A stretch of 43,285 nucleotides of DNA, taken from positions 1-43,285 of the IMG/VR virus record IMGVR_UViG_3300039210_000339. One strand, 5' to 3'. The number at the start of each line of letters is the position of its first letter. Positions within the stretch are counted from its first letter, which is position 1. A program made the translations under genes and the position numbers. The notes under the pieces were generated by a model. The model saw only the letters and a program-made list of their open reading frames with translations. It was not told the DNA's origin and did not search any database. This stretch comes from a virus. This document shows, one piece after another, positions 5,136-43,285 of this stretch.

Positions 5136-8105
5136 ATGAGTGTACGGCAAGATGTAGTTAACCTAATAGTTAATATAAATGGCAACGAGGCACAAAACAA
5201 TTTAACCGATCTCCGCAAACGTGCTGCTGATCTTAAATTTGAGATGAATGGAATCAAAAAAGGAACCCAGGAATATCTTGATAAAAGCAAAGAGCTTAAA
5301 ACGGTTACCGGCCAGATGGATGCTTTGAAAAAACAAATTGGTATAACCGGGCTTACTTTAAAAGAATTAAACCAGGAGGCAGGTAAACTAAAAAGCTTAC
5401 GCGATAACGTAGTTGGTGGCACAACTGAGTGGAAAAATTATGATAAGCAATTACAGGCTGTAATAGCCCGGCAAAAAGAAGTTGGTGGTGGCGTAAAAGG
5501 TTTTCAAAAAGCACAGTCTGAACTTACCGGCACCAACCACACACTTGCAGAAAGCTTTAAAAATATTTTTGTAAGAGTTGGTGAATACCTGAGCGCCTTC
5601 GCCATTTATAATACAATAAAAAACTTCATTACCAGCACTGTTGATGCTGCTTTGGATGCAGATAAGGCCATCCACAGATTTAAAGGTACACTTGATAATC
5701 TTGGAAGAAGTGATGCATTTGCAAGATTGGAAAAAGCTACACATGATCTGCAGGAAAGATTTAAAGTTTTCGATCATACCGAATTTACCCATGTTTTTGA
5801 ACAACTGATAACATACGGAAGGCTTACTGAAAAACAAATACTGCAACTCACACCTGTTATTGCAGACTTCGCATCTAAGTCAGGCAAATCAATGGAAGAA
5901 TCAGCTAGCCTAATTATCAAAGCACTTGAAGGAAATGCCCGTGCATTAAAAGATTTTGGTATTAATATTAAAGATGCAAAAACTGAAGGGGAGCGTTTTA
6001 GCCTTGTGATGGGTGAGCTGGAAAAAAGGGTGCATGGCGCCACAGATGCTTTTGGCGAAAGCACGCAGGGAAAGATACAGGCAACAGAAGTCCGCTTTAA
6101 AGATTTAAAAGAAGAAATTGGAAATAATTTTCTGCCAATATGGAACGAAGTTTTAAATGTTACCAATAAATTTCTTGAAGGAATAAATAAACTACCTGAT
6201 GCAATTTCTTATGTTTTAAAAGTGGCGGATTTCAACAAGCAAAAGAAAAAAAACAATGGATTAGTTCAGCGGGTAATGGAAGGCGAACAGGCACAGGAGT
6301 CTAAAAATGTATTTGTACAACAGGAAGATATCACAGGTTCTTTTGATAAAAAGGGGAAATTTATTAATGATAAAAATAAAAAATTGGGCACTGGTAAAGA
6401 GTTAAGCGATGTAGATAAAGCAGCACAGGAAAGAGCAAAGTCGGAACGTGAGGCATCACTCAAGCGTGCAGAACAATATCATGCGGATGGATTAAAACTT
6501 TTAGCTGATGCCAACAAGGCTGAAGCCGAAGAATTGAAAGCAAAATATAAAGCTGAGGCAGATGATCAAACTAAAAGCCTGGAAGAAAGATTTGCTGCGC
6601 TGAAATTATATTATGAAGCAGGTAAAAAATTAATAGAGCAAAATAAACAGGACAAACAAAATGAAATTAATGATACAGAAAAAAGAGAAGTGGCCGGAGC
6701 AAAAACTAAAACTGAAAAAGATCAGGCTATATGGAAAGCAGCACAGGCAACTGATGCATTAGTAAAATCCAGTGCGCTTGATGCATCCAATTTTGAAATT
6801 GAGGTAAGCAACGAATTCACCAAAGCAGCCGATCAAAATTTTAAAAAACTTACAGCCGAAAGCCAGAAGAGTTACGAGGCAATGAAGAAACATGATGCTG
6901 ATGCATACAAAAATCAGCAGGATATTATTTCTATCGATACAAATAATAAACTCCTTAAACTCGATCAGGATTTTCAAAACGGAAAAATAAAAAATGTAAA
7001 AAAATACCAGGCTCAGCGGGAGCAGATCATTTATGACGGCCATCAAAAAGAATTGCAGTTTGAATTAAATTATGTAACCACCATCGAAAAAATATTACGA
7101 GCCGCAGGCCTTATTAATGTTGACATTGAACAAAAAATTGCTGATCTAAAAGTTAAAATAAACAAAGCAAAAAATGATAAGCAGATAAAAGATGATGAGG
7201 ATGCAAAAACGAAGAGAGAGAAAATAATTAAGGAGATACAGGATGGCGCTCAGCAGGTTTTAGATACTGCAGCAAATCTTGCACAGTTAATAAGCACACG
7301 TGAGCAGGCAGCATTTAATAAAGAGAAAAAAGCAAATGAGGACAAGCTTGCATTTTATAAAAAACAATTAAACGGCAAGCTTATAAGCCAGCAGGCGTAT
7401 GATAAAAAAGTAAATGCAATAAATGAGGAGCAGGCAAAAAAACAACATGAACTTGATGTACGGGATTTTAAAAGAAAGAAGGCCCTTGCATTGGCAAAGG
7501 CAATTATAGATACCGCCGCCGGTGTTGCAGGATCATTTCCAAATTTTATTAAGATGGCAATAATTGCAGCAATAGGCGCTGTAGAAATTGCAACCATTGC
7601 AAGCGAACAACCACCCGAAGCCGCAGAAGGTAATTGGTTTCGCAATGGTGAAAAACATAAAGATGGAGGCATACCGGTGGTAATAGAAAGAGATGAGGCA
7701 GTGATGAAAGCAGATGCCATGACGGACCAGACTGTTGTTAGCGCCACCGGCACCACAGCACAAATAACATCAGCATTAAATAAACGCAAAGGCGGCGTAA
7801 ACTGGGCCGGAGGTGCAACTGTGCATGATACGCCACAATGGAGAACTGCAAAGCCTGCATACATCAGCTCCAGCATTCCTAAAATAATGGCTCAGGGCGG
7901 ATACAATGGCAACTCATCATCAACGGCCGCAGGCAATTCTAATTTAGAAAAGTTGTTACAACGAAATAATGAATTGATGGAAATGCAAATTGAAGAAACG
8001 AAAAATAAAAATGCAAGCCTTCATGCAGTTGTCTCAATTAAAGAATACCGCAGAGAAGAAAAAAAATATGATGACTCAGTGAAAGCCGGAGGAATAAATC
8101 AATAA
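5136..8105 (+). CDS. tail tape measure protein
   Basis: 989 residues, the longest gene here. It is mostly charged coiled coil (about residues 20-110 and 430-790) with a helical globular region at about 180-330 containing ITYGRLTEKQILQLTPVIADF. A hydrophobic segment lies at about 795-825 (FIKMAIIAAIGAVEIATIAS). Near the C-terminus is EKHKDGGIPVVIERDEAVM, a stretch typical of tape-measure C-termini. The family sets tail length and helps DNA exit. At about 150 nm per 1000 residues it would suit a tail of that order, assuming siphovirus scaling. It opens the tail operon behind a late promoter. Confidence 0.85.
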   Translation: MSVRQDVVNLIVNINGNEAQNNLTDLRKRAADLKFEMNGIKKGTQEYLDKSKELKTVTGQMDALKKQIGITGLTLKELNQEAGKLKSLRDNVVGGTTEWKNYDKQLQAVIARQKEVGGGVKGFQKAQSELTGTNHTLAESFKNIFVRVGEYLSAFAIYNTIKNFITSTVDAALDADKAIHRFKGTLDNLGRSDAFARLEKATHDLQERFKVFDHTEFTHVFEQLITYGRLTEKQILQLTPVIADFASKSGKSMEESASLIIKALEGNARALKDFGINIKDAKTEGERFSLVMGELEKRVHGATDAFGESTQGKIQATEVRFKDLKEEIGNNFLPIWNEVLNVTNKFLEGINKLPDAISYVLKVADFNKQKKKNNGLVQRVMEGEQAQESKNVFVQQEDITGSFDKKGKFINDKNKKLGTGKELSDVDKAAQERAKSEREASLKRAEQYHADGLKLLADANKAEAEELKAKYKAEADDQTKSLEERFAALKLYYEAGKKLIEQNKQDKQNEINDTEKREVAGAKTKTEKDQAIWKAAQATDALVKSSALDASNFEIEVSNEFTKAADQNFKKLTAESQKSYEAMKKHDADAYKNQQDIISIDTNNKLLKLDQDFQNGKIKNVKKYQAQREQIIYDGHQKELQFELNYVTTIEKILRAAGLINVDIEQKIADLKVKINKAKNDKQIKDDEDAKTKREKIIKEIQDGAQQVLDTAANLAQLISTREQAAFNKEKKANEDKLAFYKKQLNGKLISQQAYDKKVNAINEEQAKKQHELDVRDFKRKKALALAKAIIDTAAGVAGSFPNFIKMAIIAAIGAVEIATIASEQPPEAAEGNWFRNGEKHKDGGIPVVIERDEAVMKADAMTDQTVVSATGTTAQITSALNKRKGGVNWAGGATVHDTPQWRTAKPAYISSSIPKIMAQGGYNGNSSSTAAGNSNLEKLLQRNNELMEMQIEETKNKNASLHAVVSIKEYRREEKKYDDSVKAGGINQ

Positions 8106-8110
8106 TATAA

Positions 8111-8146
8111 TCTTCTCCATTTCCCCCCACCGGGGGATAGGGGGCT
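8111..8146. repeat. GC-rich palindromic element
   Basis: CCCCCACCGGGGG followed by ATAGGGGGC. Nearly the same unit occurs at 41783 and, in frame, inside the primase at 19821. Confidence 0.7.
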
Positions 8147-8156
8147 AAATAACATT

Positions 8157-9977
8157 ATGCTAAAAGTTTTTGTTTACGGCGATAAATACCAGGGCTTTCT
8201 TGATCTGCCGGCAGATACATTTTTGGATATGGAAATATCATCAGAAATGTTTGATGAAGATCTGAAGCTTGGTGAAATAAGTTTACCCCTACCGGTACCA
8301 TGGACGGATCCAAATAAAAAAATATTTGGATTTATTGAAATGCTGAATACAGTGCCGGCGAAAGAAAAAAACTTTTGGCGCTGTGATGTTTTTAATGATG
8401 ATATCCCGGAGATCCTCGATGGTAAAATAACGCTCCTGCAGAGTGATGGTGATTTTAATTATCAAAACGGTTTGTACAGCTTTACAATCAGCGGTAATAA
8501 AGGATTGTTCGGTTCATTGATCGGCAAAAAAACATTAAGAGATCTCACACTCGGTAAAATTCTTTTTCCTGCAGTAGACAGCAGGCACTTTGCAAGGCTC
8601 GTGATGATGAATGATCCTTCAGTAAGCCAATATCCTTACCTGCGTTTTGCACCGGTGGCCATGCTAAACTTTTTTGATGTTGACCGCCGTGATTATAATA
8701 ATGAATTTATTGCGCAGGATATTGTAAACAATGTTGTTGTTAACCCTGCCGGCGGCGGCCCGGATGATTGGTTATTTGGAAGACCATCAGCCGCAGACAC
8801 TGCAATAGCGGCCGTTTCAGGCACTGCCGAATATTTAGATTATCGTACCATTCCTTTTTTTACTTACAAATGGATACTCCAAAAATTGTTTGAAGAATTT
8901 GGTTACACCCTCACCGGCCAATGGATAAATGATGCTGCCTGGGATGATGCAGCAATGTTTAATAACCGTTCGATAGAGCTGTATGATACTGTTGCATTCA
9001 CTGATACAAATCGGGAAATAAATATCGCTGATCACATGCCGAAAAAAGCGATCGGAATTTTTCTTGCAGACTTTCAAAAACTTTTTAATGTTCGCCTGTC
9101 ATTTTTAACCGGCAGAAATATCAGCATCGATTACCGCATAACATCTTTAAAAAATAATGGAGCAAAAGATGTTACCCGGATCATAAATAAAAAATTTCAA
9201 AGCTTTACAACAGATTATAAAGACAAAGGATTTACGCTGGCTTTTGCTGTTGATAATGCTGACAGTTATTTTGGTGACCGCGTAAAAGAAATTGATGCAA
9301 ATAAAGTGGTGGCCACAGTAGATAAATTTACTGACCTCGCTACACTTGTTATTGGCCGTGCATTTGAATACAATGATCTTGTATATGTAAATGCTGAGAA
9401 CCAATATTATGGTTATACAAACGGTGTGGGCCCAAAGGCATGGGATTATTTTAGTGAGCGCCTGATGCCTTTTGTAATTGGTGCCGGCGATTATAAATTT
9501 GAAACTTCCATCGCTCCGATGGCCACGTATATTATATATGATCCTGCAAATGATAATCTCGTTAACCAGGACATGGTGGCCGCCGACATGAAAGGATCTT
9601 ATTTTACAAAAACTTTTAAGCTGGTAGAAAATGATTTTGATACACGAATATTTTTTGCAAAACGTGTAATTAAGAACGGCGTTAATGTTGCCTCATCATT
9701 TGTAAACAGCAGGGATAGGTACAATGTAACCCGCGTTCCGAAAAGCCTTGCGTGGTTTGGCGCTGATGGCCTGTATAATTATTGCTGGAAGGATTGGTTA
9801 GATTTCTTAACCCGGACACGCAACATAAAAACAACGCTCACACTTAATCAAAAAACATACAACGAATTAAAAGCTGCCGGTAAGATCTCAATTGATGGTA
9901 CAGTGTATTTGCCAACCGTTACACGGCCGCGGATACCAATTAAAGAAGAAGTAGAATTTGAAGCATTCCGGTTATAA
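8157..9977 (+). CDS. tail protein following tape measure, possibly hub / distal tail
   Basis: 606 residues, beta-rich with many aromatic residues and no membrane segment or signal. It begins MLKVFVYGDKYQGFLDLP and contains a region of short strands (for example YSFTISGNKGLFGSLIGKK). Position directly after the tape measure gene fits a distal tail or tail-hub protein, by analogy with siphovirus gene order. I do not recognise the family itself. A palindromic element separates it from the preceding gene, and the XRE cassette follows. Confidence 0.6.
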   Translation: MLKVFVYGDKYQGFLDLPADTFLDMEISSEMFDEDLKLGEISLPLPVPWTDPNKKIFGFIEMLNTVPAKEKNFWRCDVFNDDIPEILDGKITLLQSDGDFNYQNGLYSFTISGNKGLFGSLIGKKTLRDLTLGKILFPAVDSRHFARLVMMNDPSVSQYPYLRFAPVAMLNFFDVDRRDYNNEFIAQDIVNNVVVNPAGGGPDDWLFGRPSAADTAIAAVSGTAEYLDYRTIPFFTYKWILQKLFEEFGYTLTGQWINDAAWDDAAMFNNRSIELYDTVAFTDTNREINIADHMPKKAIGIFLADFQKLFNVRLSFLTGRNISIDYRITSLKNNGAKDVTRIINKKFQSFTTDYKDKGFTLAFAVDNADSYFGDRVKEIDANKVVATVDKFTDLATLVIGRAFEYNDLVYVNAENQYYGYTNGVGPKAWDYFSERLMPFVIGAGDYKFETSIAPMATYIIYDPANDNLVNQDMVAADMKGSYFTKTFKLVENDFDTRIFFAKRVIKNGVNVASSFVNSRDRYNVTRVPKSLAWFGADGLYNYCWKDWLDFLTRTRNIKTTLTLNQKTYNELKAAGKISIDGTVYLPTVTRPRIPIKEEVEFEAFRL

Positions 9978-18587: not shown

Positions 18588-18660
18588 AGCGCCGTAGAGC
18601 AGCGGTAGCTCACTGGACTCATACTCCAGGGGTCGGCAGTTCGAATCTGCCCGGCGCAAC
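18588..18660 (+). tRNA. tRNA-Met (CAT anticodon)
   Basis: A complete cloverleaf. Acceptor AGCGCCG pairs with CGGCGC (position 1 is an A-A mismatch with position 72), TA at 8-9, D stem GAGC/GCTC, anticodon stem CTGGA/TCCAG around loop CTCATAC, variable GGGTC, T stem GGCAG/CTGCC around TTCGAAT. No CCA end encoded. The CAT anticodon could also be read as tRNA-Ile after lysidine modification. It sits in the plus-strand early operon, 4 bases after a small gene. Confidence 0.9.
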
Positions 18661-19177: not shown

Positions 19178-20277
19178 TAAAACAAAACTCCATAGAAGAG
19201 CTCCGCAACAAATGTGATATCACAGATGTTGTAAATAAATATACTGTTGTAAAACGTGATATGGCCTGCTGTCCCTTTCATGATGAGAGAACGGCAAGCT
19301 TTAAAATATACCCGGCAAAACAAACCTATAAATGTTTTGGCTGTGGCGAAAGTGGCGATGTGTTTAAGCTCATCATGAAAAAAGAGAATTTAAATTTTGT
19401 GGAAGCTGCAGAATATTTAGCAGCCGCCGCCGGCATCGGGCTGGAGTATGATCAGCAGAGCCAGCAGGAAGCCCAGGAAATAAAAGATGAGCGCAAAGAA
19501 ATGCTCGCCATTGCAGAATGGGCAAATAAAAAATACATCACATCATTGGTGCAACTACCGGATGATGCTGCCGCCATAGAATATTTAAATGTGAGGGGCT
19601 ACAGTCGCGAAAGAGCAACAGCCTGGGATCTTGGCTTTGCCCCGGATGACTGGAAATTTATCACAACTCCGCTGATCAACATGGGTAAACTAATGGATGC
19701 AATAAAAACCGGGTTGGTTTATTCCCGTGATGGAAAGAACTGGGATTTTTATCGCACCAGGATAACCATACCAATCCATGATCACAATGGTATTGTAGTC
19801 GGCTTAGCCGGGCGGCTTATCCCTCCCCCACCGGGGGAGACGGAGGGGGCAAAGCAGCCCAAATATTTAAACCCGGTAGAGAGCCTTATTTACAGCAAGA
19901 AGAAAATTTGGTACGGGCTATGGCAGGCACAAAAAGCGATAAAGGAAGAAAAGTTTTGTTACGTGGTAGAAGGATATTTTGATGTGCATGCCATGCAGGA
20001 TAATGGAATGCTCAACACCATTGCCGCCTGCGGTACAGAGGTTGATGACAGCCAGATAAAGTTTTTAAAAAGATACACCGAGCGTGTAGTGATAGCATTT
20101 GATGGTGACGGGCCAGGGACAAAAAAACAAATGCTGCTGATCAATATTTTTTTACAAAACAATTTTAAAGTTGATGTGCTTGTACTTCCCCAAGGGAAGG
20201 ACCCGGATGAATATATAAATGAATTATTAAAGATCCCGCAGGCGGCGGTTGACGAAACATATATGGTCAGGAGTTAA
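19174..20277 (+). CDS. DnaG-type primase with CHC2 zinc finger and TOPRIM
   Basis: 367 residues from the ATG at 19174, chosen because it overlaps the upstream small gene as ATGA and begins the DnaG-like IEELRNKCDITDVV. Upstream codons are not DnaG-like. The CHC2 zinc finger is C33-x2-H36 ... C54-x2-C57. The catalytic N-domain follows. A TOPRIM region at about 260-345 has VVEGYFDVHAM (Glu about 265) and AFDGDGPG (Asp about 310 and 312). The usual helicase-binding C-terminal domain is absent. It should lay RNA primers for phage replication with the helicase at 24723. A 10-codon palindromic insertion lies at 19821-19850. Confidence 0.9.
   Translation: MIKQNSIEELRNKCDITDVVNKYTVVKRDMACCPFHDERTASFKIYPAKQTYKCFGCGESGDVFKLIMKKENLNFVEAAEYLAAAAGIGLEYDQQSQQEAQEIKDERKEMLAIAEWANKKYITSLVQLPDDAAAIEYLNVRGYSRERATAWDLGFAPDDWKFITTPLINMGKLMDAIKTGLVYSRDGKNWDFYRTRITIPIHDHNGIVVGLAGRLIPPPPGETEGAKQPKYLNPVESLIYSKKKIWYGLWQAQKAIKEEKFCYVVEGYFDVHAMQDNGMLNTIAACGTEVDDSQIKFLKRYTERVVIAFDGDGPGTKKQMLLINIFLQNNFKVDVLVLPQGKDPDEYINELLKIPQAAVDETYMVRS
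19821..19850. repeat. in-frame GC-rich palindromic insertion in primase
   Basis: CCCCCACCGGGGG followed by AGACGGAGGGGGC, 30 bp in all. It is the same family as the intergenic copies at 8111 and 41783. It encodes PPPPGETEGA between GRLI and KQPKYLNP, where DnaG proteins normally have a short loop. Confidence 0.7.
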
Positions 20278-22146: not shown

Positions 22147-22299
22147 ATGCAGAACCAAGCGATCATATTACCCATTAACCCGGAACTTAAAAAAGTACCT
22201 GCTAAACAGGCACCGGTAAAATTATTATTACCACCGGCGGATAAATCTTTCTTACATTCATTGGCTCAAATTTTTGTAACCAAAATTCTCCAGTCATGA
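22147..22299 (+). CDS. 50-residue basic peptide upstream of recombinase
   Basis: Starts on the base after the previous stop and overlaps the recombinase start (ATGA). The product is proline and lysine rich (PINPELKKVPAKQAPVKLLL) with no membrane segment. Tight coupling suggests it may assist or tune the recombinase; it could be a recombination directionality factor, but no motif proves that. Confidence 0.5.
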   Translation: MQNQAIILPINPELKKVPAKQAPVKLLLPPADKSFLHSLAQIFVTKILQS

Positions 22300-23879
22300 A
22301 AAAAGCGATCGCATACAAACGCATCTCTACAAAAGATCAAAGCAATTTTTCTTTGTCCGGCCAGGAGAAATATATAAATGAATTTGCGATCGCAGAAAAT
22401 ATTTTAATTGTTGGAAGCTTTACTGATGACGGCAAAAGTGCAAAAAACTTTGACAGGCCCGATTGGAAGTTGCTGGAAGCCTTTGTGCGTGAGCATCACA
22501 GGGATGTTGATTATTTAATTGTAATTAAATATGATCGCTTTAGCCGCAACGCTGCACAAGGTTTACAAAAAATAGAATGGCTGGAACAGAAGTACCGCAT
22601 CATGATCATCAGCGTTTTTGAAAGAATGTTTATTGATTACGACAGTCCATTTTATTTTAAGCAACGTGCCGACATGCTGGTATCTGCAGAGTTTGAATTA
22701 CGTGTGATCCGCGACAGGACAAAGTTTGGAATTCACCAGGCATTAAGCAGCGGAAGATTTATAAATATGGCGCCGTTTGGATATCGCAATGACCGTGATG
22801 AAAAGAAAGTACCGGTGATAAAAATTGTTGAAGAGAAAGCTTTAATAATAAAGAAGATCTTCTCCATGTTTTTAGCCGGAAGTAATAAGGTTGAAATATT
22901 TAGATCTGCAAAGCTCGCAGGTTTTACCAGGACATCACACAGCTCCATCCCGGACGTTTTAAGCAACTGTGTTTATGCAGGATTGATCTACGTGCCGGCA
23001 TACAGAAAAGAAGCTGCAAAATATGTGAAGGGTGTGCATGATGCAATTATTGATGAGCATACATATTGGCAAGTGCAGGAACGCCTTGGCAATACATTGC
23101 AAAAAAGAAATGTGCTCAACCCGGAAGTGCATTTGCGTGGTGTACTAAAACACACCTGCGGAAAATTATTAACGGCCGGCAACAGCCGCAGCAAGAGCGG
23201 AAAATATTATTGGTATTACAAATGCAATGATCATCCTGAGACAAATTATTCTGCAAACAAAATTCATTTGCAGTTTGATGAAGTACTGCAGCATCTCAGC
23301 CTCACTGATCAGCACATAAATTATTTGACGCAGGCAGCGCATGAAGAAATGAAAATTCAATTGCAGGACAGGGATAAAAAAATTATCAAATTAAAACATG
23401 AGTTACAGGTTGCCATGAAAAATATCGACAACCTGGAAGAGAAATTTATTATTGGGGATCTGGCACCGGCAACTTATAAAAAATGGTACAGCAAATATGC
23501 AGCAGCAGAAAGTTCCATCCGTCACCAGCTGGCGGAATTAGAAAAAAATTCCGAAGACAAATGGAATTTATTTTATACCGAATTACCGAAGCTTTCTGAT
23601 ATGCAGTTCCTATACCAGGCAGCAGATCTATCACAGAAAAGAACTTTTGTGCGCCAGGTGTTCAACTCACAACTGTCGTATGTGGATGGTGTTTATAGAA
23701 CACCTTTTCTGTTACCATTGCTAAGTCACAACACATTGATTTTAAAACAAAAAGGGCTGCTCATTGTTGAACAGCCCCCGCTACAAGTTGAAGAAAATGA
23801 AGGAAGTACCCCGAACCGGAGTATAATTGAACTCCACTCCTCTTTTCTACAACTGGTTGCGGAAATTAAAACCGCTTAG
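22296..23879 (+). CDS. large serine recombinase (integrase)
   Basis: 527 residues. The N-terminal resolvase domain (about 1-150) has AYKRIS with catalytic Ser11 and the arginine motif KYDRFSRNA. A recombinase domain (about 165-275) includes APFGYRND. A zinc-ribbon-like region (about 285-320) has HTCGK and KCNDH with fewer cysteines than usual. A coiled coil lies at about 345-405. The family integrates phage DNA between attP and attB without host factors. It is the only integrase seen. It starts by ATGA overlap with the small basic peptide. attP is not evident. Confidence 0.9.
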   Translation: MKKAIAYKRISTKDQSNFSLSGQEKYINEFAIAENILIVGSFTDDGKSAKNFDRPDWKLLEAFVREHHRDVDYLIVIKYDRFSRNAAQGLQKIEWLEQKYRIMIISVFERMFIDYDSPFYFKQRADMLVSAEFELRVIRDRTKFGIHQALSSGRFINMAPFGYRNDRDEKKVPVIKIVEEKALIIKKIFSMFLAGSNKVEIFRSAKLAGFTRTSHSSIPDVLSNCVYAGLIYVPAYRKEAAKYVKGVHDAIIDEHTYWQVQERLGNTLQKRNVLNPEVHLRGVLKHTCGKLLTAGNSRSKSGKYYWYYKCNDHPETNYSANKIHLQFDEVLQHLSLTDQHINYLTQAAHEEMKIQLQDRDKKIIKLKHELQVAMKNIDNLEEKFIIGDLAPATYKKWYSKYAAAESSIRHQLAELEKNSEDKWNLFYTELPKLSDMQFLYQAADLSQKRTFVRQVFNSQLSYVDGVYRTPFLLPLLSHNTLILKQKGLLIVEQPPLQVEENEGSTPNRSIIELHSSFLQLVAEIKTA

Positions 23880-32654: not shown

Positions 32655-32692
32655 CCCCCTATCCCCCTAAAGGGGAGGACATGGAGAAGATC
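32653..32692. repeat. GC-rich palindromic element
   Basis: CCCCCTATCCCCC-taaa-GGGGAGGACATGGAG, directly after the capsid stop. Confidence 0.65.
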
Positions 32693-34922: not shown

Positions 34923-34936
34923 GTTATAATATAACC

Positions 34937-35191
34937 ATGGCACGAGAATTCCCACGTTTTTTATTTAGCAAACGCACACGTGTTAAACATCCGGGAGCAT
35001 GGATAGTACATACACTGCATCCACAATTTATTGCAAAAGCTTATTTAGATTTTGATGAAGTACCTCAGGTAGATTTATTACAGGTTTTTAGTCCGCTGGT
35101 ACCTGCTACTGATCGCACTGTTACTGATGCTTTTGATGCGATGAAGAAATGGTTTAATGCGCAATTATTATCAGGAGATATTCAGATTTAA
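34937..35191 (+). CDS. hypothetical late protein
   Basis: 84 residues: MAREFPRFLFSKRTRVKHPG, then mixed fold to the end. No recognised family. The next promoter begins one base after its stop. Confidence 0.5.
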   Translation: MAREFPRFLFSKRTRVKHPGAWIVHTLHPQFIAKAYLDFDEVPQVDLLQVFSPLVPATDRTVTDAFDAMKKWFNAQLLSGDIQI

Positions 35192-35229
35192 TTTGTCCTT
35201 TATCAGGCGCACGCCTGCACCTATTTTGC
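35192..35229 (+). promoter_or_regulatory. late promoter, predicted leaderless (copy 5 of 7)
   Basis: TTTG at 35192-35195 in TTTGTCCTTT, 26 bp, TATTTTGC at 35222-35229. The ATG at 35234 is 4 nt further on. The -7 box fits slightly better with a 25-bp spacer. Confidence 0.6.
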
Positions 35230-35233
35230 ATGA

Positions 35234-36049
35234 ATGCTGGAAACATTACGTGCATGGCTTAATGGAAAAAGAGATTATAACACCGGTGTTGCGCTGTATG
35301 CACAATTAGGGGCCAATAAAGAACTGCTTGCACTTTTAAAAAAAGGTGCCAATGAATTTCGGGAGAAGCGCCTGCATGAAGAGTTATTAATAATTTGTAA
35401 TGAATTAAAATCAAAAAAAAATGGCAAAACAATATTACCGGAAACCTGTATGGATAAAGGCGCTGCCGGAAATAATAAAAGCACTGGAGAACCAAAGAGC
35501 GATAACAGAAATGGGGAAGTGGGGACCATTAGAGCAACCGAAACCGAGAAGACCATTGACAATAATGCCAGATCAATTATTTTGGATCGCTCCACCTCCA
35601 GTAGTAATCTTCCCGTAAACTTAGAACTCTACAACGCCTGCAAAGCAGCCGCTGATAAGAAGTACAAAGAAATAATGAATTTGCGTACCAGGCTTTTTAT
35701 TCTTGCTGAGCCTGATGAATTTTCCAATCCAAATACTGCAGAAAAAATAAATGCAAGAAGTAAACTTGCATTAGATGTTGTGCTTGGCCAACATGAATAC
35801 TCACGCCTTTATGATGTTGCTGACTTTGTAAAATTACATGGCCGCCTTCCTGATCAGGAAGAAGGTGATGAAAATATTGAGCCTGTTATCCCGGATCATC
35901 TTGTAAAAGAAAAATTAGATAATGCACGCAAAGCTTTTAATAAATTAAAACGCAGAGAACAAACACCGGCGAGAGTTGCATTGCTGCAGCAACATACAAT
36001 AAACATTGAAAAACTTTTACCACGATGGCGTTCGTTACAACTAAAATAA
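35234..36049 (+). CDS. packaging-module protein of unknown function
   Basis: 271 residues. An N-terminal helical unit (MLETLRAWLNGKRDYNTGVA), a long disordered middle (about 60-130, rich in Ser, Thr, Asn, Lys) and a C-terminal helical domain (VADFVKLHGRLPDQEEGDEN). It lies upstream of the terminase genes. It could be a terminase partner; no family recognised. Confidence 0.55.
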   Translation: MLETLRAWLNGKRDYNTGVALYAQLGANKELLALLKKGANEFREKRLHEELLIICNELKSKKNGKTILPETCMDKGAAGNNKSTGEPKSDNRNGEVGTIRATETEKTIDNNARSIILDRSTSSSNLPVNLELYNACKAAADKKYKEIMNLRTRLFILAEPDEFSNPNTAEKINARSKLALDVVLGQHEYSRLYDVADFVKLHGRLPDQEEGDENIEPVIPDHLVKEKLDNARKAFNKLKRREQTPARVALLQQHTINIEKLLPRWRSLQLK

Positions 36050-36129
36050 ATGAGAGCGTGCAGGATGCTGCAGACTTTATTAATGCATCCGGAGAGTGCG
36101 CTGATTTTGCTCACCGGCACAAACGATGA
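36025..36129 (+). CDS. possible 34-residue ORF overlapping the previous gene
   Basis: ATG at 36025 gives MAFVTTKINESVQDAADFIN plus 14 residues and ends by ATGA overlap with a 16-codon frame (36126-36176). That in turn overlaps the next gene start by ATGA. A competing frame (36050-36145) starts on the base after the upstream stop. Coding status uncertain. Confidence 0.3.
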   Translation: MAFVTTKINESVQDAADFINASGECADFAHRHKR

Positions 36130-36172
36130 GCCTGGATCTGTTTAATAAATCAAAAATTAAAATGCTCGATCG

Positions 36173-36805
36173 ATGAAAAAAGATGTGATAAAAGTATTGG
36201 AAGAAAAGCGTGATCAGATTGCAGCCGGAACAGAAATGATTGTTGCTAAAACCCGCGACTGGCAAGTGATTGTCGCGTACATGAATAACAGGTTTAATGA
36301 GATAGACCTTACACCTGAGCAGCAGGAAAAATTAAAACGATATCAATACATCCACGCAGAATTAAGCAGCTTTAAATATACAGAGCAGGAAGTGATCATC
36401 CAGGTGATGAATATGTTTGATGTGAAAATTGTGCAGGCTTACGAAGATCTTAATTCCACCAAAGAAATATTTTCGAAAGTGCTCAGCATTAAAAAAAGAT
36501 TTGAACAAAAGATGCAGTACGAAGCCGCAAAAAAAGTGTTGCACAAATGTGAAGAGCTTCAGGATTTTAAAGCGTATGCTGCGGTGCATAAAAATATTGT
36601 GTTGTTGCTTAGAGATATTCAGGAAGAGGAAGATAATGCCGGAGAATTATTTGATGGCCATACTTTTGAAGTGGTTGTTGATCCGCGTTTGATAGGGGCT
36701 CCAAAAGTTGATAGAAAAGCTGTGTTGGATGCTATTAATGCAAAGAGATCCAAAAAAATAAATGCATCAATTTTTGAAGACATCGATCATGAAGATGTGA
36801 AATAA
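36173..36805 (+). CDS. probable terminase small subunit
   Basis: 210 residues, highly helical (LTPEQQEKLKRYQYIHAELS ... VKIVQAYEDLNSTKEIFSKV), with a basic C-terminal region (KVDRKAVLDAINAKRSKK). No clear HTH motif is visible, but size, helical content and position immediately upstream of the large terminase support the small-subunit call, which recognises DNA for packaging. Confidence 0.55.
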   Translation: MKKDVIKVLEEKRDQIAAGTEMIVAKTRDWQVIVAYMNNRFNEIDLTPEQQEKLKRYQYIHAELSSFKYTEQEVIIQVMNMFDVKIVQAYEDLNSTKEIFSKVLSIKKRFEQKMQYEAAKKVLHKCEELQDFKAYAAVHKNIVLLLRDIQEEEDNAGELFDGHTFEVVVDPRLIGAPKVDRKAVLDAINAKRSKKINASIFEDIDHEDVK

Positions 36806-36810
36806 TTTCT

Positions 36811-38448
36811 ATGAAAAAACAAATGCATTATAATGTTCCGCAAGTAAGGAGCATGATGATTGCGGCAGCGATTGAATACATTGTTCACGGTAGAGGCACC
36901 GGTAAAACTGTTGGGCCACTGGCATACAAAAGCGTAAACAAATATGTTAGGACAATGCCACGCGGCACTCACGTGATCCTGGGTGCAACTTACACACAGG
37001 TACTTACAAGAACTTTAAAAGAATTAATTCGCGGATGGCAAATGCATGGTTATGTTTATGATCATCATTTTATTGTTGGCAAAAGGCCAACTGATAAATG
37101 GAAGAAGATGTGGAAGTGGAAAGGACCTTATGCGCCTCCGGAAGATTATAAAAATTATATCTGTTGGTGGAATGGTGCCATCAGCCAAATCGTTAGCCAG
37201 GCTAATCCTGGATCCTCGAATGGTATGAGCATCGATTCAATTATTGGTGATGAATTAAAACTTATAAACAGAGAAAAATTTCAAACAGAATTGTTGCCGG
37301 CAAATCGTGGGATCATTCCTGCGTTTGCAAATAATCCTTATCATCATGGAATGACTTTTACAACCGATATGCCTGTTGGCACTGCAGGCCGGTGGATATT
37401 GGACATGAGAGATAAAATGGATAATGAAAAAATTAATGAGGTGTGGAAAATGCTTGCAGTGCGGTATGATATCACAAATGATATTAAAAAAGAAACGGAT
37501 AAAAAAATACTGAAGGAATTAAATAATGATTTGTTCCTGGTTGATGATGAGCTTAACGAATTACGCAAAGGATTGCTTTATTATCATGAAGCTTCAACAT
37601 TGGCAAACATTGATGCGTTGGGCCTTGATTACATTAAAGAGCAATTGAGAACATCAACACAATTTCAATTTGATACACAAATTTTAAATATCCGTCCATT
37701 AAAAATGGAAGATGGATTTTACCCGGACTTTGACGAAGAGGTGCATGGTTATTTTGCAGAGAATGAAGATTATTTTACTAACCTTGAATATGATCCCTTC
37801 TCCACTGTATTGGATTGCAGGAAGGATAAGGACCTTAATACAAACGCTCCACTGCATATTGGCATGGATTATAACAGACGCATACATTGTATCTCTGTTG
37901 GGCAGGAGACGGCTAATGAGGTACGTTCTCTCAAGGGCATACATTGTTTGTACCCGGAGAAGCTTAAGGATGTAGTAGAGAAGTTCTGTGTGTACTATAA
38001 GGCACATAAACGTAAGCTGGTGTACTATTGGTATGATCATACAGCAGTGGGTGATCAGCATGAGACACGGATATGCGATGATGTGATAGCAATACTACGT
38101 AAGCATGGATGGGTAGTTATTCAAATGTACATTGGCCACCAACCAGGGCATGAAGAGAGATACAGGATGTGGGGAGATTTGCTAACGTTTAATGGTAAGT
38201 ATAAGCAAGCGTATAAGATCAATAGAGAGAACTGCAATAAACTAATACTCTCAAAATGCCAGGCACAGGCAGAGCAGCGTAAGGATGGCTTTGGCAAGGA
38301 TAAGAAGAGTGAACATGATCGTAACTTTCCTGCCGAAGAATCTACTCACTACACTGATGCCGAGGATACATGGGTCTTTGGTATATTGGAATCTAAGATG
38401 AGCTTCAGCACTGGGTCTGGTAGTGGTGGTAGTATTATACTTGGGTAA
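36811..38448 (+). CDS. terminase large subunit
   Basis: 545 residues. ATPase: Walker A GRGTGKT (27-33) and Walker B SIIGDE (Asp147, Glu148). Nuclease domain from about residue 345: HIGMDYNRR (Asp353), YWYDHTA and TDAEDTWVF supply likely metal-binding acids. The enzyme cuts concatemers and pumps DNA into the prohead. Codon use changes sharply near residue 335: by eye lysine is about 22 AAA to 4 AAG before and 3 AAA to 17 AAG after, with a parallel rise in GAG. This suggests the nuclease half was acquired by recombination. Confidence 0.9.
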   Translation: MKKQMHYNVPQVRSMMIAAAIEYIVHGRGTGKTVGPLAYKSVNKYVRTMPRGTHVILGATYTQVLTRTLKELIRGWQMHGYVYDHHFIVGKRPTDKWKKMWKWKGPYAPPEDYKNYICWWNGAISQIVSQANPGSSNGMSIDSIIGDELKLINREKFQTELLPANRGIIPAFANNPYHHGMTFTTDMPVGTAGRWILDMRDKMDNEKINEVWKMLAVRYDITNDIKKETDKKILKELNNDLFLVDDELNELRKGLLYYHEASTLANIDALGLDYIKEQLRTSTQFQFDTQILNIRPLKMEDGFYPDFDEEVHGYFAENEDYFTNLEYDPFSTVLDCRKDKDLNTNAPLHIGMDYNRRIHCISVGQETANEVRSLKGIHCLYPEKLKDVVEKFCVYYKAHKRKLVYYWYDHTAVGDQHETRICDDVIAILRKHGWVVIQMYIGHQPGHEERYRMWGDLLTFNGKYKQAYKINRENCNKLILSKCQAQAEQRKDGFGKDKKSEHDRNFPAEESTHYTDAEDTWVFGILESKMSFSTGSGSGGSIILG

Positions 38449-38449
38449 T

Positions 38450-38760
38450 GTTGGGTGTTGCTTCGCCCGGGCTTTCCATTACTATCTCTCACTGCGTTCA
38501 AGGATATACATTACAATCCCTAACACAAACAACAATGCAACATGGTGGCTTCGCCTTACATAGGGGATACCTCGGGCTACGCCCAACGTAGGGAGGCGTT
38601 TCCGACATCCTGTCATTTTGTCTTAGCGAACGTAGGGAGGCGTTTCCGCCATCCTGTCATTTTGTCTTAGCGTTTGCGACAGCCTGTCATATTTGCCTGC
38701 CATTTTGTCTTGGCGTGCGCTCTTACCCCTTTGGGCGGGGGCTCGATTCCAGTTTACGAA
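38450..38760. repeat. gene-free repeat-rich region with 44-bp tandem repeat
   Basis: Between the terminase and the next gene (38449-38907) no convincing gene is seen. It holds REP-like sequence (TTGCTTCGCCCGGGCTTTCC, CTCTCACTGCGTTCAAGGAT), then two tandem 44-bp copies at 38585-38628 and 38629-38672 with one mismatch. A degraded third copy runs to 38715. Each carries CCTGTCATTTTGTCTTAGCG or a variant. A short CCCC...GGGG hairpin follows near 38727-38740. Confidence 0.65.
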
Positions 38761-38865
38761 AACGAAGTTTTGAAAAAAGAAAAAAATAATCGTTTGAGCA
38801 TCAATGGAATGCGTAAAAATAGAGCGAAATAGGCAAAATAACTGTCCTAAAATTTGCATAATATA

Positions 38866-38903
38866 TTTGTCCTTTTCACCTCCCCACAGCTAATTTACTT
38901 TAG
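38866..38903 (+). promoter_or_regulatory. late promoter, predicted leaderless (copy 6 of 7)
   Basis: TTTG at 38866-38869 in TTTGTCCTTTT, 26 bp, TACTTTAG at 38896-38903. The ATG at 38908 is 4 nt further on. Confidence 0.7.
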
Positions 38904-38907
38904 CCGA

Positions 38908-39225
38908 ATGGCATTAACCTTAAAAGAAGCTATACAACTTTTAGAATCCGGAGACTGGTTAAAACACCTGCGCTTTATCACTGCAGATATAAACAAACGT
39001 GTCGGCGGCAAGGTTGTAGAATTTAATAAATGCAGAATTGCCAGGCATCAGGACACACCAAAATCAACCAGCAGTACTCCTGCACCCGGCAGATATGCAT
39101 CACGTATAACACGGGATCCTCAGCACAGTACCCATTTCACACGTAATATTGAATTAGCTAACCGCGAGATCCGCAAAGTGCATCCAATTATCATTACCCA
39201 CATAAACCACCAGTCTATCCTATGA
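38908..39225 (+). CDS. hypothetical protein upstream of portal
   Basis: 105 residues from the ATG at 38908, chosen because the promoter geometry places transcription start there. Basic, with an N-terminal helix (LKEAIQLLESGDWLKHLRFI) and a disordered middle. Overlaps the portal start by 4 bp (ATGA). Confidence 0.6.
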   Translation: MALTLKEAIQLLESGDWLKHLRFITADINKRVGGKVVEFNKCRIARHQDTPKSTSSTPAPGRYASRITRDPQHSTHFTRNIELANREIRKVHPIIITHINHQSIL

Positions 39226-40706
39226 ACGAGTACTACGACGGCCCGGTAACCTATTTAGAACAAAGCGAAAGCGCAGTATATTTCTCCCGTGAAAGCGTTA
39301 CTGCCGGTACATTTCAGGCAAACAGCCAAAAAAACGGAAGTGCAGATTCTACAGCGATCATCATTCGCAAACTGCAAAGCCAGATAGATCTTGCTTATTG
39401 GGGAGAAGATAACCGGTTTCCTCAAAATATTGTACGCCAAATGGCTTACTGTGGCATTGGCCAGTACGGGCTTGATCGTAAGGCCCGCAAACTGTGGGGC
39501 AATGGCATTATTCCCGGAAAAATAACCGGCTACGATGCTAATGGCACAGAAATATTTGTTCCCTTAAAACCTCAAAAAAATTCACCGGTATACAAATATT
39601 TCAACGACCGTAAAACACTTCGTTTTTGGCTGGAATATCTACAGGATTGGGCATGGTTCTCCAATTGCTTCCCCGAAGCAATTCTCAGCAAGGATTGTAA
39701 AACAATTACCCACTTCGCACACCAGGAAAGCTGCGATTCCCGGTTCAGGCAAATGAATGATGCAGGGAAAATTGAATACATGTTCCTCTCAAAAATTTGG
39801 GGCCTTTCACGTGATCAGTTTGCAACATTCGACCCAGATAAAGCCATGAAGGGCCTGTACACAAATCAGGAAAATTTTAGCGAAATAGATAATAAATATA
39901 TCAAGAAGCTTGACTGCATCGATATGTACGATTCGGTTAACAGCCTGAAGGAAATTGCAAAAAAATTAAAATCAAAATCGGGTTTAAAATCTGCAATTCT
40001 TCCCGTTAATTATCCTTCACCAAATAAAACATATTACCAGGTGCCGGTATGGGATGGAGCACGCCTGGGCGGTTGGGTTGAGATTGCATGTAAAGTTCCG
40101 TCACTCATTAAAACGCTTTACAACAAAGCATTTAAAATAAAAAATCACATCGAGATCCCATCATCTTACTTTCCTGAAAGATTTGGCGAAGAAGCCTGGG
40201 CAGCAATGAAGGATGACGAAAAAATCAGGAAGAAAAAAGATGTGCTCAAAGAAATGGATGAATTCCTCTCCGGGGATAAAAATGCTTTCAAAACATTCGT
40301 AAGCATATTCCAGGTTGATAATATAACCAAAAACGAATACGCACGCATAAAAATCACGCCGATAGAAGATAAAGCAAACATCGATAACGATATTATTACC
40401 GGCTCTGCAGCTGATACTCAAATATTAATTGCGATGGGCCAGAATCCCACTATTTCAGGCGCAGGTAAAGCAGGATCAGGACAGCAACGCAGTGGCGGAT
40501 CAGATATCCGCGAAGGCGACCTGGTAGAAACTTCAGTGCTAAATCTTGAGAGAAATGTTTTTATGGAACCGCTTTACCTCATGCGTGATTTTAACCGCGA
40601 AGTAGGTGGTATTAGCGAATGGAGCGAAGATCTTGTCTTCCGTGTTCGTGATACCGTATTAACCACGCTGGACACCGGTGCCGGAACAAAAAAAGTAGTT
40701 AGTTAA
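39222..40706 (+). CDS. portal protein
   Basis: 494 residues. Near the start is IDLAYWGEDNRFPQNIVRQM, a motif of Bacteroidetes-phage portal-like proteins, followed by GLDRKARKLWGNGI. A long helical stem region lies at about 300-350 and the C-terminus is helical. Portals form the dodecameric ring through which the terminase packs DNA. Position after terminase and before a connector-like gene fits. No membrane segment. Confidence 0.75.
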   Translation: MNEYYDGPVTYLEQSESAVYFSRESVTAGTFQANSQKNGSADSTAIIIRKLQSQIDLAYWGEDNRFPQNIVRQMAYCGIGQYGLDRKARKLWGNGIIPGKITGYDANGTEIFVPLKPQKNSPVYKYFNDRKTLRFWLEYLQDWAWFSNCFPEAILSKDCKTITHFAHQESCDSRFRQMNDAGKIEYMFLSKIWGLSRDQFATFDPDKAMKGLYTNQENFSEIDNKYIKKLDCIDMYDSVNSLKEIAKKLKSKSGLKSAILPVNYPSPNKTYYQVPVWDGARLGGWVEIACKVPSLIKTLYNKAFKIKNHIEIPSSYFPERFGEEAWAAMKDDEKIRKKKDVLKEMDEFLSGDKNAFKTFVSIFQVDNITKNEYARIKITPIEDKANIDNDIITGSAADTQILIAMGQNPTISGAGKAGSGQQRSGGSDIREGDLVETSVLNLERNVFMEPLYLMRDFNREVGGISEWSEDLVFRVRDTVLTTLDTGAGTKKVVS

Positions 40707-40718
40707 ATATTCTTTGCC

Positions 40719-40757
40719 TTCTCCCCTCTCCTTTGGAGAGGGGCCGGGGGTGAGGTT
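40719..40757. repeat. GC-rich palindromic element
   Basis: CCCCTCTCC-ttt-GGAGAGGGG followed by CCGGGGGTGAGG. Translates in one frame to SPLSFGEGPGVR; same family as 12545. Confidence 0.8.
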
Positions 40758-40770
40758 AAATAAAGCACAC

Positions 40771-41775
40771 ATGTTATTCAAAGACAAAAATAAACTCGCC
40801 GAATATGCAGCCATTGTTGGCACAACAAATTTTGCGGCCGTAAAACCTACAATCGAAACTGTTGAAGAGCAGGAGCTCGTTCCCTGGATCGGAGAAGAGC
40901 TGTATGATTACATAAATAGCCAATACACAGATGCAGCCAATGAAGATGCATTAGAAGCTCCTGAAAAAGATCTGCTGCATAAATGCCGCCGCGTAATTGG
41001 CCCCTTTTTATGCTATTATTTCGCTCCTAAAAGCGATGTGCAGCTTGATGAATCAGGAATGCGCCGTAATGAGACCGGAACTGTAAAAACAGCCTTCCAG
41101 GAACAGCGGGAAAACTTTTTAGAACAAAATTTAAAAGAAGGCGAGCTCGCTGTTGAATCATTACTCCAGTTTCTCGAGAAAAATAAAGCCAACTATCAAA
41201 CATGGGTTGAAAGCGATTCATTTAAAAAATACCGCAAACTTTTTATAAAAACAGGCAAAGAATTTCAGAACCTGTTCCCATCGGCCAGTCCCTTCCGCAA
41301 TTATGCTGCAATGCGGCCTAAAATGATGGAAGTAGAAGAAAATATCATCAGAAAAGCCCTCGGAAACGTGCTTTTTGATGCCCTAAAAACCAAAGATGCA
41401 ACCCAGGAACAGGGCTTTTCTGACGGCGAAAAAGTGCTGCTGGAAAAAATAAAATTAGCCATCGCCCATTTAACAGTAGAGCAGTCAATTCCTTTCTTAA
41501 ATATCCGCCTCGACGGCAGCGGATTTACCGTTGCAAGCACTTCCCGAACAACAAATAACCAATTAAGCAGCAGAAATGCTGCTCCCGATAATGCAGTAAG
41601 CCTTTTACAAAAAAGTTGCGAGAGATCCGGCGCTATTTGGATAGCAAATACAAAAAATTATTTAAATGATCCTGAAAATGCCGGCGTATTCACCGGGTGG
41701 CCGATAGCAGTAACAAAAACAAAGTGTACCGATGAAACGGATCGGAATGGTGCAGGCGCTTATGGTTTTTTATAA
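40771..41775 (+). CDS. probable head-tail connector / DUF6712-like protein
   Basis: 334 residues from the ATG at 40771; an upstream frame would translate the palindromic element and is rejected. Helical throughout (LFKDKNKLAEYAAIVGTTNF ... ELVPWIGEELYDYINSQYTD). It resembles proteins annotated as DUF6712 in Bacteroidetes phages, placed after the portal, so a head-tail connector role is likely but not certain. Confidence 0.6.
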   Translation: MLFKDKNKLAEYAAIVGTTNFAAVKPTIETVEEQELVPWIGEELYDYINSQYTDAANEDALEAPEKDLLHKCRRVIGPFLCYYFAPKSDVQLDESGMRRNETGTVKTAFQEQRENFLEQNLKEGELAVESLLQFLEKNKANYQTWVESDSFKKYRKLFIKTGKEFQNLFPSASPFRNYAAMRPKMMEVEENIIRKALGNVLFDALKTKDATQEQGFSDGEKVLLEKIKLAIAHLTVEQSIPFLNIRLDGSGFTVASTSRTTNNQLSSRNAAPDNAVSLLQKSCERSGAIWIANTKNYLNDPENAGVFTGWPIAVTKTKCTDETDRNGAGAYGFL

Positions 41776-41782
41776 AAAATAA

Positions 41783-41818
41783 TCTCCTCCGTTTCCCCCA
41801 CCGGGGGATAGGGGGCTT
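41783..41818. repeat. GC-rich palindromic element
   Basis: CCCCCACCGGGGG followed by ATAGGGGGC; nearly the same as 8111. Confidence 0.75.
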
Positions 41819-41826
41819 CTTTTGCA

Positions 41827-41864
41827 TTTGTCCTTTTTAAAAAAGTAAAATAAAATCATTTTTG
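41827..41864 (+). promoter_or_regulatory. late promoter before tail-fibre genes (copy 7 of 7)
   Basis: TTTG at 41827-41830 in TTTGTCCTTTTT, 26 bp, CATTTTTG at 41857-41864. The ATG is 7 nt further on. Confidence 0.7.
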
Positions 41865-41871
41865 AAAAACC

Positions 41872-42279
41872 ATGCCAACAGTAGTACTTCCTAAAAAAGT
41901 TAATGAGCTTGATCCGCTTCCGGATTTTGAAAATACAAAGTTGCTTGTTGTTGCAGATCCTGTTACCGGGAAAAGTTACAAAGCAACAATGGCGCAGCTT
42001 AAAGGTTTGTCCAGGGAAAAAATAATTTTTAATAACGATGGCTCATACACATTACCTGCCGGAACCTTACTAATAAAATTAATCGTAATCCTCACCGGAA
42101 ATTTTCTTTTAAACATCGGCAATTCAGCCGGCACACATGAAATCTTAGAAGACTATAAAATAGTTGATCAGGATGTAATCGCCATCGACATTTTCGCATT
42201 AACGCCCCGCAATATTTATTTCAGCGGCATCACCGGTAACGGCCCAGTAACAATAATTTTTATAAAAAGTATCGAATAA
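41872..42279 (+). CDS. small fibre-associated protein
   Basis: 135 residues. Begins MPTVVLPKKVNELDPLPDFE, like N-terminal attachment parts of phage fibre proteins (KVNELxxLxxFxxxKLLVVADP). A hydrophobic middle (LLIKLIVILTGNFLLNI) and a beta-rich end follow. It directly precedes the tail fibre gene, so a fibre base or chaperone role is likely. Confidence 0.55.
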   Translation: MPTVVLPKKVNELDPLPDFENTKLLVVADPVTGKSYKATMAQLKGLSREKIIFNNDGSYTLPAGTLLIKLIVILTGNFLLNIGNSAGTHEILEDYKIVDQDVIAIDIFALTPRNIYFSGITGNGPVTIIFIKSIE

Positions 42280-42281
42280 CC

Positions 42282-43285
42282 ATGAAAAACTGTTTCGCAA
42301 AAACATTCGCAAATATCTTCTCCATTTCCTTCCCCCTCAGGGGGAAGATAGAAGGGGGTTTCTTCCTTCGCACAACTTTCTTATTTCTTATTTCTTATTT
42401 CTTATTTCTTATTTCCGCCACAGCCCAAAACGGCGGCCAGTTCAACAAGTTAATTGTAAAGGATAGCTTTAAGCTTGGCAACACCTGGTACACCACATTT
42501 ACATTTGGTGGCGGCATCACTGATACAATTCCCTTGCACGATGAAATTTTTGCCCGTGCGCTGGATAATGCAGTTGTGCATCTCTCCGGCACCGAAACCA
42601 TCACCGGCATAAAAACATTTTCGCAATCACCAAAAACAATTGCACCGGCTGCAGGTGACAGCTCCACAAAAATCCCGACAACAGAATGGGTGATGAAACA
42701 AATTGCCAATGGCCCAACCATTGATGTTTCCGGAAAATTAAACAAGAGCGATAGCAACACTATTTATTATCCCGCAAGTAATCCACAGCATTTTCTTACC
42801 ACGGCAAACGAAACTGATCCTACAATACCTGCATGGGTAAAATCAATTGCTAATGGAACGGCAGTAAATCAATATCTTGGCTTTAACGGCAGCGCCTGGA
42901 TAGCACGGCAGATACAATTTACAGACATTGCTTCGGTAATGAGCTTCCCTTATGTTGCCAATAGGTTCCTTAATGGCTATGGCGCATTTACGCCATTAAA
43001 CACTGACAGTGTACCGGAAGGGCCTACAAACAAATATTTTACAAATGCCAGGGTAGCAACATACGGCGATGCACATTATTACCCACTCTCATCAAATCCT
43101 GCAAATTATTTAACGGGCACACCATCGGCTCTTACAAAAACAGATGATACAAATGTTACTTTAACGTTAGGTGGCACACCATCAACATCTTTATTACAGG
43201 CTACATCTTTAACGTTAGGCTGGACAGGGACGTTAGCAGATGGAAGGATTACCTCGGCATCAAATTGGAATACAGCATATAGCTG
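42282..43285 (+). CDS. tail fibre protein, partial, with repeat-encoded signal peptide
   Basis: Open from the ATG at 42282 to the window edge (about 334 codons seen, no stop). Residues about 15-26 are encoded by a palindromic element. Residues about 32-45 are encoded by (TTTCTTA)5 and form a hydrophobic core ending SATAQ, a typical Bacteroidetes signal peptide. The mature part has fibre-type repeats (GTETITGIKTFSQSPKTIAP, PTTEWVMKQIA, LGWTGTLADGRI). Repeat units of 7 bp mean slippage would shift the frame. The signal peptide is odd for a virion fibre; it could instead be a surface-exported adhesin. Confidence 0.7.
   Translation, partial: MKNCFAKTFANIFSISFPLRGKIEGGFFLRTTFLFLISYFLFLISATAQNGGQFNKLIVKDSFKLGNTWYTTFTFGGGITDTIPLHDEIFARALDNAVVHLSGTETITGIKTFSQSPKTIAPAAGDSSTKIPTTEWVMKQIANGPTIDVSGKLNKSDSNTIYYPASNPQHFLTTANETDPTIPAWVKSIANGTAVNQYLGFNGSAWIARQIQFTDIASVMSFPYVANRFLNGYGAFTPLNTDSVPEGPTNKYFTNARVATYGDAHYYPLSSNPANYLTGTPSALTKTDDTNVTLTLGGTPSTSLLQATSLTLGWTGTLADGRITSASNWNTAYS
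42316..42360. repeat. in-frame GC-rich palindromic element
   Basis: CCCCCTCAGGGGG followed by AAGATAGAAGGGGG, within the first 27 codons of the fibre gene. Confidence 0.65.
42377..42415 (+). repeat. heptanucleotide repeat (TTTCTTA)5
   Basis: Five perfect TTTCTTA units plus TTTC inside the signal-peptide coding part of the fibre gene. Because 7 is not a multiple of 3, gain or loss of a unit changes the reading frame. Confidence 0.85.

Follow-up and report, generated by a model that had tools for sequence, protein, structure and literature searches.

A perfect heptanucleotide repeat forms the core of a putative signal peptide on a tail-fibre-like gene of a Duneviridae-like phage

The window analyzed here is a stretch of 43,285 nucleotides covering positions 1 to 43,285 of the IMG/VR virus record IMGVR_UViG_3300039210_000339, and its right-hand end carries a row of probable structural genes that closes with the 5′ part of a tail-fibre-like gene (Table 1). 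The reading frame of the fibre gene runs past the end of the window; the complete gene is found in a contig of a sister phage (L004, in G001, positions 6001-9051), where it encodes 1016 amino acids. The assignment of this gene to the tail fibres held at the level of a fibre-like product, since the C-terminus of the protein matches the tail-fibre family PHROG 9017 (2.5e-8), with weaker matches to PHROG 22179 and 7760; the only match of the N-terminal module was to BppL_N, below the cutoff.

Table 1. Features at the fibre locus (positions in the window)
Feature	Position	Strand	Remarks
Probable portal protein, 494 aa	39222..40706	+	assigned from its place beside the adaptor, an order shared with Ingeline_1 and L282
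DUF6712 (PF20459) adaptor-type protein	40771..41775	+	likely start MLFKDKN, not TTG 40714
Small protein, 135 aa, 'KVNELD' N-terminus	41872..42279	+	homologue of the small protein at the same position in L282 (24% identity, E 9e-7)
5′ part of tail-fibre-like gene	42282..43285	+	truncated by window end; PHROG 9017 at C-terminus
Putative fibre signal peptide, residues 1-48, cleavage ATA|Q	42282..42425	+	by inspection and syntenic relatives
GC-rich palindromic element TCCCCCTCAGGGGGAAGATAGAAGGGGG	42331..42358	+	in frame in the signal-peptide n-region, just upstream of the array
Perfect heptanucleotide array (TTTCTTA)5 + TTTC	42377..42415	+	encodes hydrophobic core FLFLISYFLFLIS

Two genes upstream of the fibre, the DUF6712 protein shows homology to the adaptor found in Duneviridae phages (Flavobacterium phages 6H, 23T, 2A and laban6-1, and Cellulophaga phage Ingeline); the matches have about 25% identity and cover up to 86% of the protein, the adaptor being the one core protein compared. 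The probable portal protein has a weak match to a PHROG of unknown function. These sequence comparisons suggest that the phage is temperate, Duneviridae-like and of a Bacteroidota type, the family link being drawn from the adaptor. The window also contains a large serine integrase (PHROG 95, 22296-23879) and a tRNA-Met gene (18588-18660), consistent with a temperate phage. For the fibre N-terminus and the small protein upstream of it, direct homologues in IMG/VR were found only in the same phage and its sister, a DNA-level search of the phage collection gave no match, and a search of 396 genomes of the family returned only three weak protein matches.

The array itself was confirmed as it had first been described, a run of (TTTCTTA)5 inside a coding region: it lies in frame in the open reading frame that begins at ATG 42282, and TRF reports a period of 7, 5.6 copies (5.57) over 39 bp and a match of 100%, the unit count being five full units plus the partial TTTC. 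It is flanked by CTTCGCACAAC and CCGCCACAGCCC, and a scan of the window for perfect tandem arrays (period 4-12, at least 21 bp) returned no second one. We ruled out a chance origin of the array, as the longest perfect period-7 run was 39 bp in the window compared to a maximum of 22 bp in 60 order-2 Markov simulations. Selection on the protein at the codon level was also ruled out as the source of the perfect repeat; successive copies of a 7-nucleotide unit carry different codons, and the repetition is therefore at the level of the DNA. A search for secondary structure in the DNA of the array found none. Elsewhere in the window, a 44-bp unit occurs in two tandem copies (97% identical) in the intergenic region upstream of the portal block (38585-38672).

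The perfect short tandem repeat thus lies in the 5′ coding region of the fibre gene and has a unit length that is not a multiple of three, so that the gain or loss of a unit shifts the fibre frame, as had been proposed. When we modelled such changes, arrays of 2, 5, 8 or 11 full units gave a product of 1009-1030 amino acids, while every other count up to 12 gave a product of 47-77 amino acids. A change of one or two units thus truncates the fibre, a change of three units keeps the frame, and two thirds of the possible lengths are OFF. Switching is therefore possible in principle, and with its present length in the ON frame the locus is a candidate contingency locus.

The array falls within what appears by inspection to be a Sec signal peptide, in agreement with the first-pass annotation, which had placed the repeat in a signal-peptide region. 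The N-terminus of the fibre, MKNCFAKTFANIFSISFPLRGKIEGGFFLRTTFLFLISYFLFLIS-ATA|Q-NGGQ, has a basic n-region, a hydrophobic core and an AxA-type cleavage site (AxA|Q); the call was made by eye from this pattern together with homologues. The n-region is unusually long, at about 31 amino acids. Since 7 is coprime to 3 and the unit is free of stop codons in every frame, three units of TTTCTTA read F-L-F-L-I-S-Y in all three frames, and the array would consequently form a hydrophobic core whichever frame is read. Judged by its translation, such a heptamer, with no stop and a hydrophobic product in each of the three frames, can provide a signal-peptide core in any of them.

The GC-rich element just upstream of the array (TCCCC..GGGG..AGGGGG) is present in four copies in the window, where none would be expected by chance, the other three lying at 19824-19849, 32655-32676 and 41794-41815. 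Its exact form in the fibre gene was absent from the 61 genomes searched, and a looser form of the motif is common, being found in 10 of 41 Chitinophagaceae-family genomes with a maximum of 35 copies (in G005).

To place the signal peptide in a wider context, we can compare the locus with those of divergent relatives. A prophage (L282) found through its adaptor, and carried by a genome that shares its family with a Chitinophagaceae centre genome (a family that recurs below), has the same gene order as the window, with a portal-sized protein, an adaptor of about 40% identity, a small 'KINEL' protein that is the homologue listed in Table 1, and a fibre of 572 amino acids that opens with the compact signal peptide MKQIFLFFLLSISLISFSQ. 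A scan of IMG/VR with the adaptor alignment gave four more relatives (L295-L298) with 43-47% identity; the fibres of L297 and L295 begin with the signal peptides MKKILLFSLLLSFCSIVFSQ and MKNRLIKLLSTSLLLTMSFAAISQ, the fibre at the syntenic place in L296 lacks one, and in L298 the fibre is missing from this place. A signal peptide is thus present in three of the four divergent relatives that have a fibre at this place (L282, L295 and L297, not L296), compared to 3 of 70 fibres in a wider set that shares modules with the window fibre, by the same hydrophobicity rule. Past the cleavage site, the fibre aligns with those of L282 and L297 along a short stretch of about 20 residues. None of the four syntenic fibres (L282, L295, L296 and L297) has a tandem repeat at its start. 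The presence of the signal peptide in relatives that lack the repeat suggests that the signal peptide is the older feature and the repeat a local replacement; on the sequences compared, the signal peptide would thus belong to this lineage, with the heptamer as a local means of making its core.

These relatives also bear on the position of the start codon. Downstream of the array, in-frame starts are available at TTG 85, GTG 99 and 137, and ATG 138 and 220 (searched to about residue 230), and if translation began at GTG 99, just before the VHLSGTETITGIKTF module, or at ATG 138, the repeat would belong to an untranslated leader and the fibre would be cytoplasmic, as phage fibres mostly are. This would fit the scarcity of signal peptides among the module-sharing fibres and the occurrence of an intergenic-type GC element within the long n-region. 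However, the syntenic relatives do carry signal peptides, and residues 50-75, which a downstream start would remove, align with their mature N-termini. Furthermore, ATG 42282 begins only 2 nt after the stop codon of the upstream gene, which suggests coupling. We therefore do not favour a start 3′ of the repeat, which seems improbable, and the upstream start that the first-pass annotation had assumed is, by comparison with relatives that likewise open their fibre with a signal peptide, probably real.

The earlier proposal went further and held that the repeat could make the fibre phase variable; no length variant that would support this was found. The locus is present in four assemblies, namely the window and three IMG/VR contigs. 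One of these (G003) is 100% identical to the window over its 9267 bp, while the other two (G001 and G002) come from a sister phage of mosaic make-up, in which 34926-43285 is matched without gaps at 99.7% identity; between the window and G001, 21 of the 23 differences fall in 34930-35107, an interval on the border of the shared block, leaving 2 SNPs in the remaining 8.2 kb. The array is 39 bp long in all four assemblies, which are few and nearly identical copies, each showing the majority allele only. In pattern scans of the site across IMG/VR, arrays of 4-33 bp were absent, and those of 39-69 bp were confined to the same three contigs, each at 39 bp. Counting of repeat units in related genomes, which had been suggested as a check, thus gave 39 bp alone in the close copies, and the array is missing from the divergent relatives. 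With so few and such similar copies, and with the majority allele as all that an assembly reports, the single length speaks weakly against frequent slippage.

Outside the portal-adaptor-fibre block, which is near-identical between them, the sister phages diverge by up to several percent; this block (34926-43285) may have been exchanged by recent recombination, or the assemblies may have been mixed. In G001 the fibre is followed by a GDSL hydrolase, a spanin-like lipoprotein and more genes, and then by the match to window position 1. Since this contig (L204) runs from the fibre region back into window position 1, the genomes appear to be circularly permuted, with a length of about 47 kb. The fibre gene also contains a 455-bp direct repeat whose copies are 93% identical (L204 9920-10374 and 10592-11046; window 43104-43285), and the contig probably breaks at the window end because the window stops inside the first copy.

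Whether the locus is a true contingency locus, in which frequent slippage toggles the fibre ON and OFF and is selected through altered adsorption or host range, can be judged against known systems. The out-of-frame unit, the perfect repeat in the 5′ coding region and the two thirds of lengths that are OFF are all as such a locus would have them, and a heptanucleotide switch has been proven in another prophage gene, neuO of CUS-3 in E. coli K1, where (AAGACTC)n ranges from 2 to 93 copies (PMC3046976, PMC13001214). Like the fibre locus, neuO is phage-borne and has its heptanucleotide array in the 5′ coding region, with every third count ON and three units giving one heptapeptide; unlike the fibre, it encodes a capsule O-acetyltransferase, its array forms a charged extension rather than a signal peptide, and its copy number is known to vary. 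By analogy, the fibre locus could be described as neuO-like in architecture, so far without the variation. This example also qualifies the remark that simple-repeat phase variation is rarely noted in phage fibres, as neuO is a proven phage-borne case, although not a fibre. At hmw1A and hmw2A of Haemophilus influenzae, (ATCTTTC)n is present in 11-24 repeats that vary over time in isolates (PMC8262952), and this too is a simple repeat of 7 bp, rich in pyrimidines, at the gene of a surface adhesin, but it lies between promoters and grades transcription. Against a contingency locus stand the lack of a second length in the four contigs and the site scans, and the shortness of 5.6 units, arrays in proven switches being usually longer (neuO, 2-93, PMC3046976; hmw1A, 11-24, PMC8262952). 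In addition, the array is not kept across the related lineages; such retention would be supportive rather than defining, as contingency repeats can be lineage-specific. On balance we consider a selected switch unlikely. Rather unlikely, too, is its combination with export, in which slippage would toggle a Sec-exported receptor-binding fibre, or an exported and a cytosolic form if an internal start were used.

The origin of the heptamer may lie with the hosts. Arrays of at least 4 TTTCTTA units are spread over many phyla, and most of them lie outside long open reading frames. Among exported proteins unrelated to the fibre, a TTTCTTA array forms the signal-peptide core of two Lnb_N-type proteins, L089 (6.0 units) and L129 (4.4 units), and L225 has a 4.4-unit array in a lipoprotein-type N-terminus, with a similar case in L119 (Bacteroidaceae). 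The Chitinophagaceae signal peptides (L089, L129 and L225) resemble that of the fibre in the unit, its role as core and the unit number (4.4-6.0), but belong to chromosomal genes for other exported proteins; evidence of switching is found in neither these nor the fibre. The arrays of L089 (2424-2465, minus strand; 42 bp) and L129 (2032-2062; 31 bp) are both in frame, in related genes from different genomes, and could possibly be a contingency site in the hosts. Among 296 genomes of the family sampled, at least 4 units were found in one, G005, the centre genome that had been picked for having them. A pattern search of 296 Chitinophagaceae genomes for an array with a GCNCAR cleavage codon pair after it found none, which suggests that a signal peptide built from such a repeat is a rarity in the family. 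A G005-like host as the source of the repeat is a reasonable guess.

Taken together, we favour, with moderate confidence, the interpretation that a host-type simple repeat serves as the core of an older signal peptide on a fibre-like protein, and that the gene is ON and its repeat mostly stable rather than a selected switch. A 39-bp simple-sequence repeat, of a type that some Bacteroidota genomes contain, would have been captured, or have grown in place, at the start of the fibre gene, where it would supply the hydrophobic core of an ancestral and genuine signal peptide, with the gene ON at the present length. The locus could switch, since slippage by one or two units would yield a truncated fibre; at so short a length, however, it is more likely to be a mostly stable, occasionally mutating site. 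Steps of three units would alter the core by seven residues (to about 8, 15 or 22), and selection for a working signal may for this reason hold the length. Within this interpretation, the export of the fibre, the host origin of the repeat and the low slippage rate are what we infer.

Arguably, the exported fibre is of greater interest than the repeat. Tail fibres are usually held to be assembled in the cytoplasm, and a putative signal peptide on a tail-fibre-like protein is unexpected in itself. As a speculation, an exported fibre could join virions by attachment at or after lysis. Should the array slip in nature, the receptor-binding apparatus of the phage would vary at random, through the same simple means by which bacteria vary their surfaces; and a Bacteroidota-type phage group with export signals on its fibre-like proteins would sit badly with cytoplasmic fibre assembly. 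Literature searches for heptanucleotide phase variation with signal peptides, and for Bacteroidetes phage fibres with signal peptides, found nothing relevant.

A signal peptide on a fibre-like product could also mean that, instead of being a fibre of the virion, the protein is secreted or located at the surface, is made in the lysogen or during lysis, and reuses fibre modules. In G001 the next gene is a GDSL hydrolase with a signal peptide of its own (L004 6001-10288), and in Ingeline_1 (L249, 24089-30497) four consecutive genes have signal peptides, a pectate lyase among them. This alternative appears distinctly improbable, since the fibre gene adjoins the portal-adaptor block, its product carries a tail-fibre domain at the C-terminus, and two of the four Ingeline_1 genes are annotated 'structural protein'. 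The fibre-like or structural genes of Ingeline_1, L282, L295 and L297 resemble that of the window in starting with a signal peptide that ends in AxxQ/SQ and in being accompanied by a related adaptor, and differ from it in that their signal peptides contain no tandem repeat; the Ingeline_1 proteins are not close homologues of the window fibre. By the same hydrophobicity rule as above, the fibre genes of 6H and laban6-1 have no signal peptide. For Ingeline_1, signal peptides on lyase-domain proteins were noted by those who described the phage (PMC8776804).
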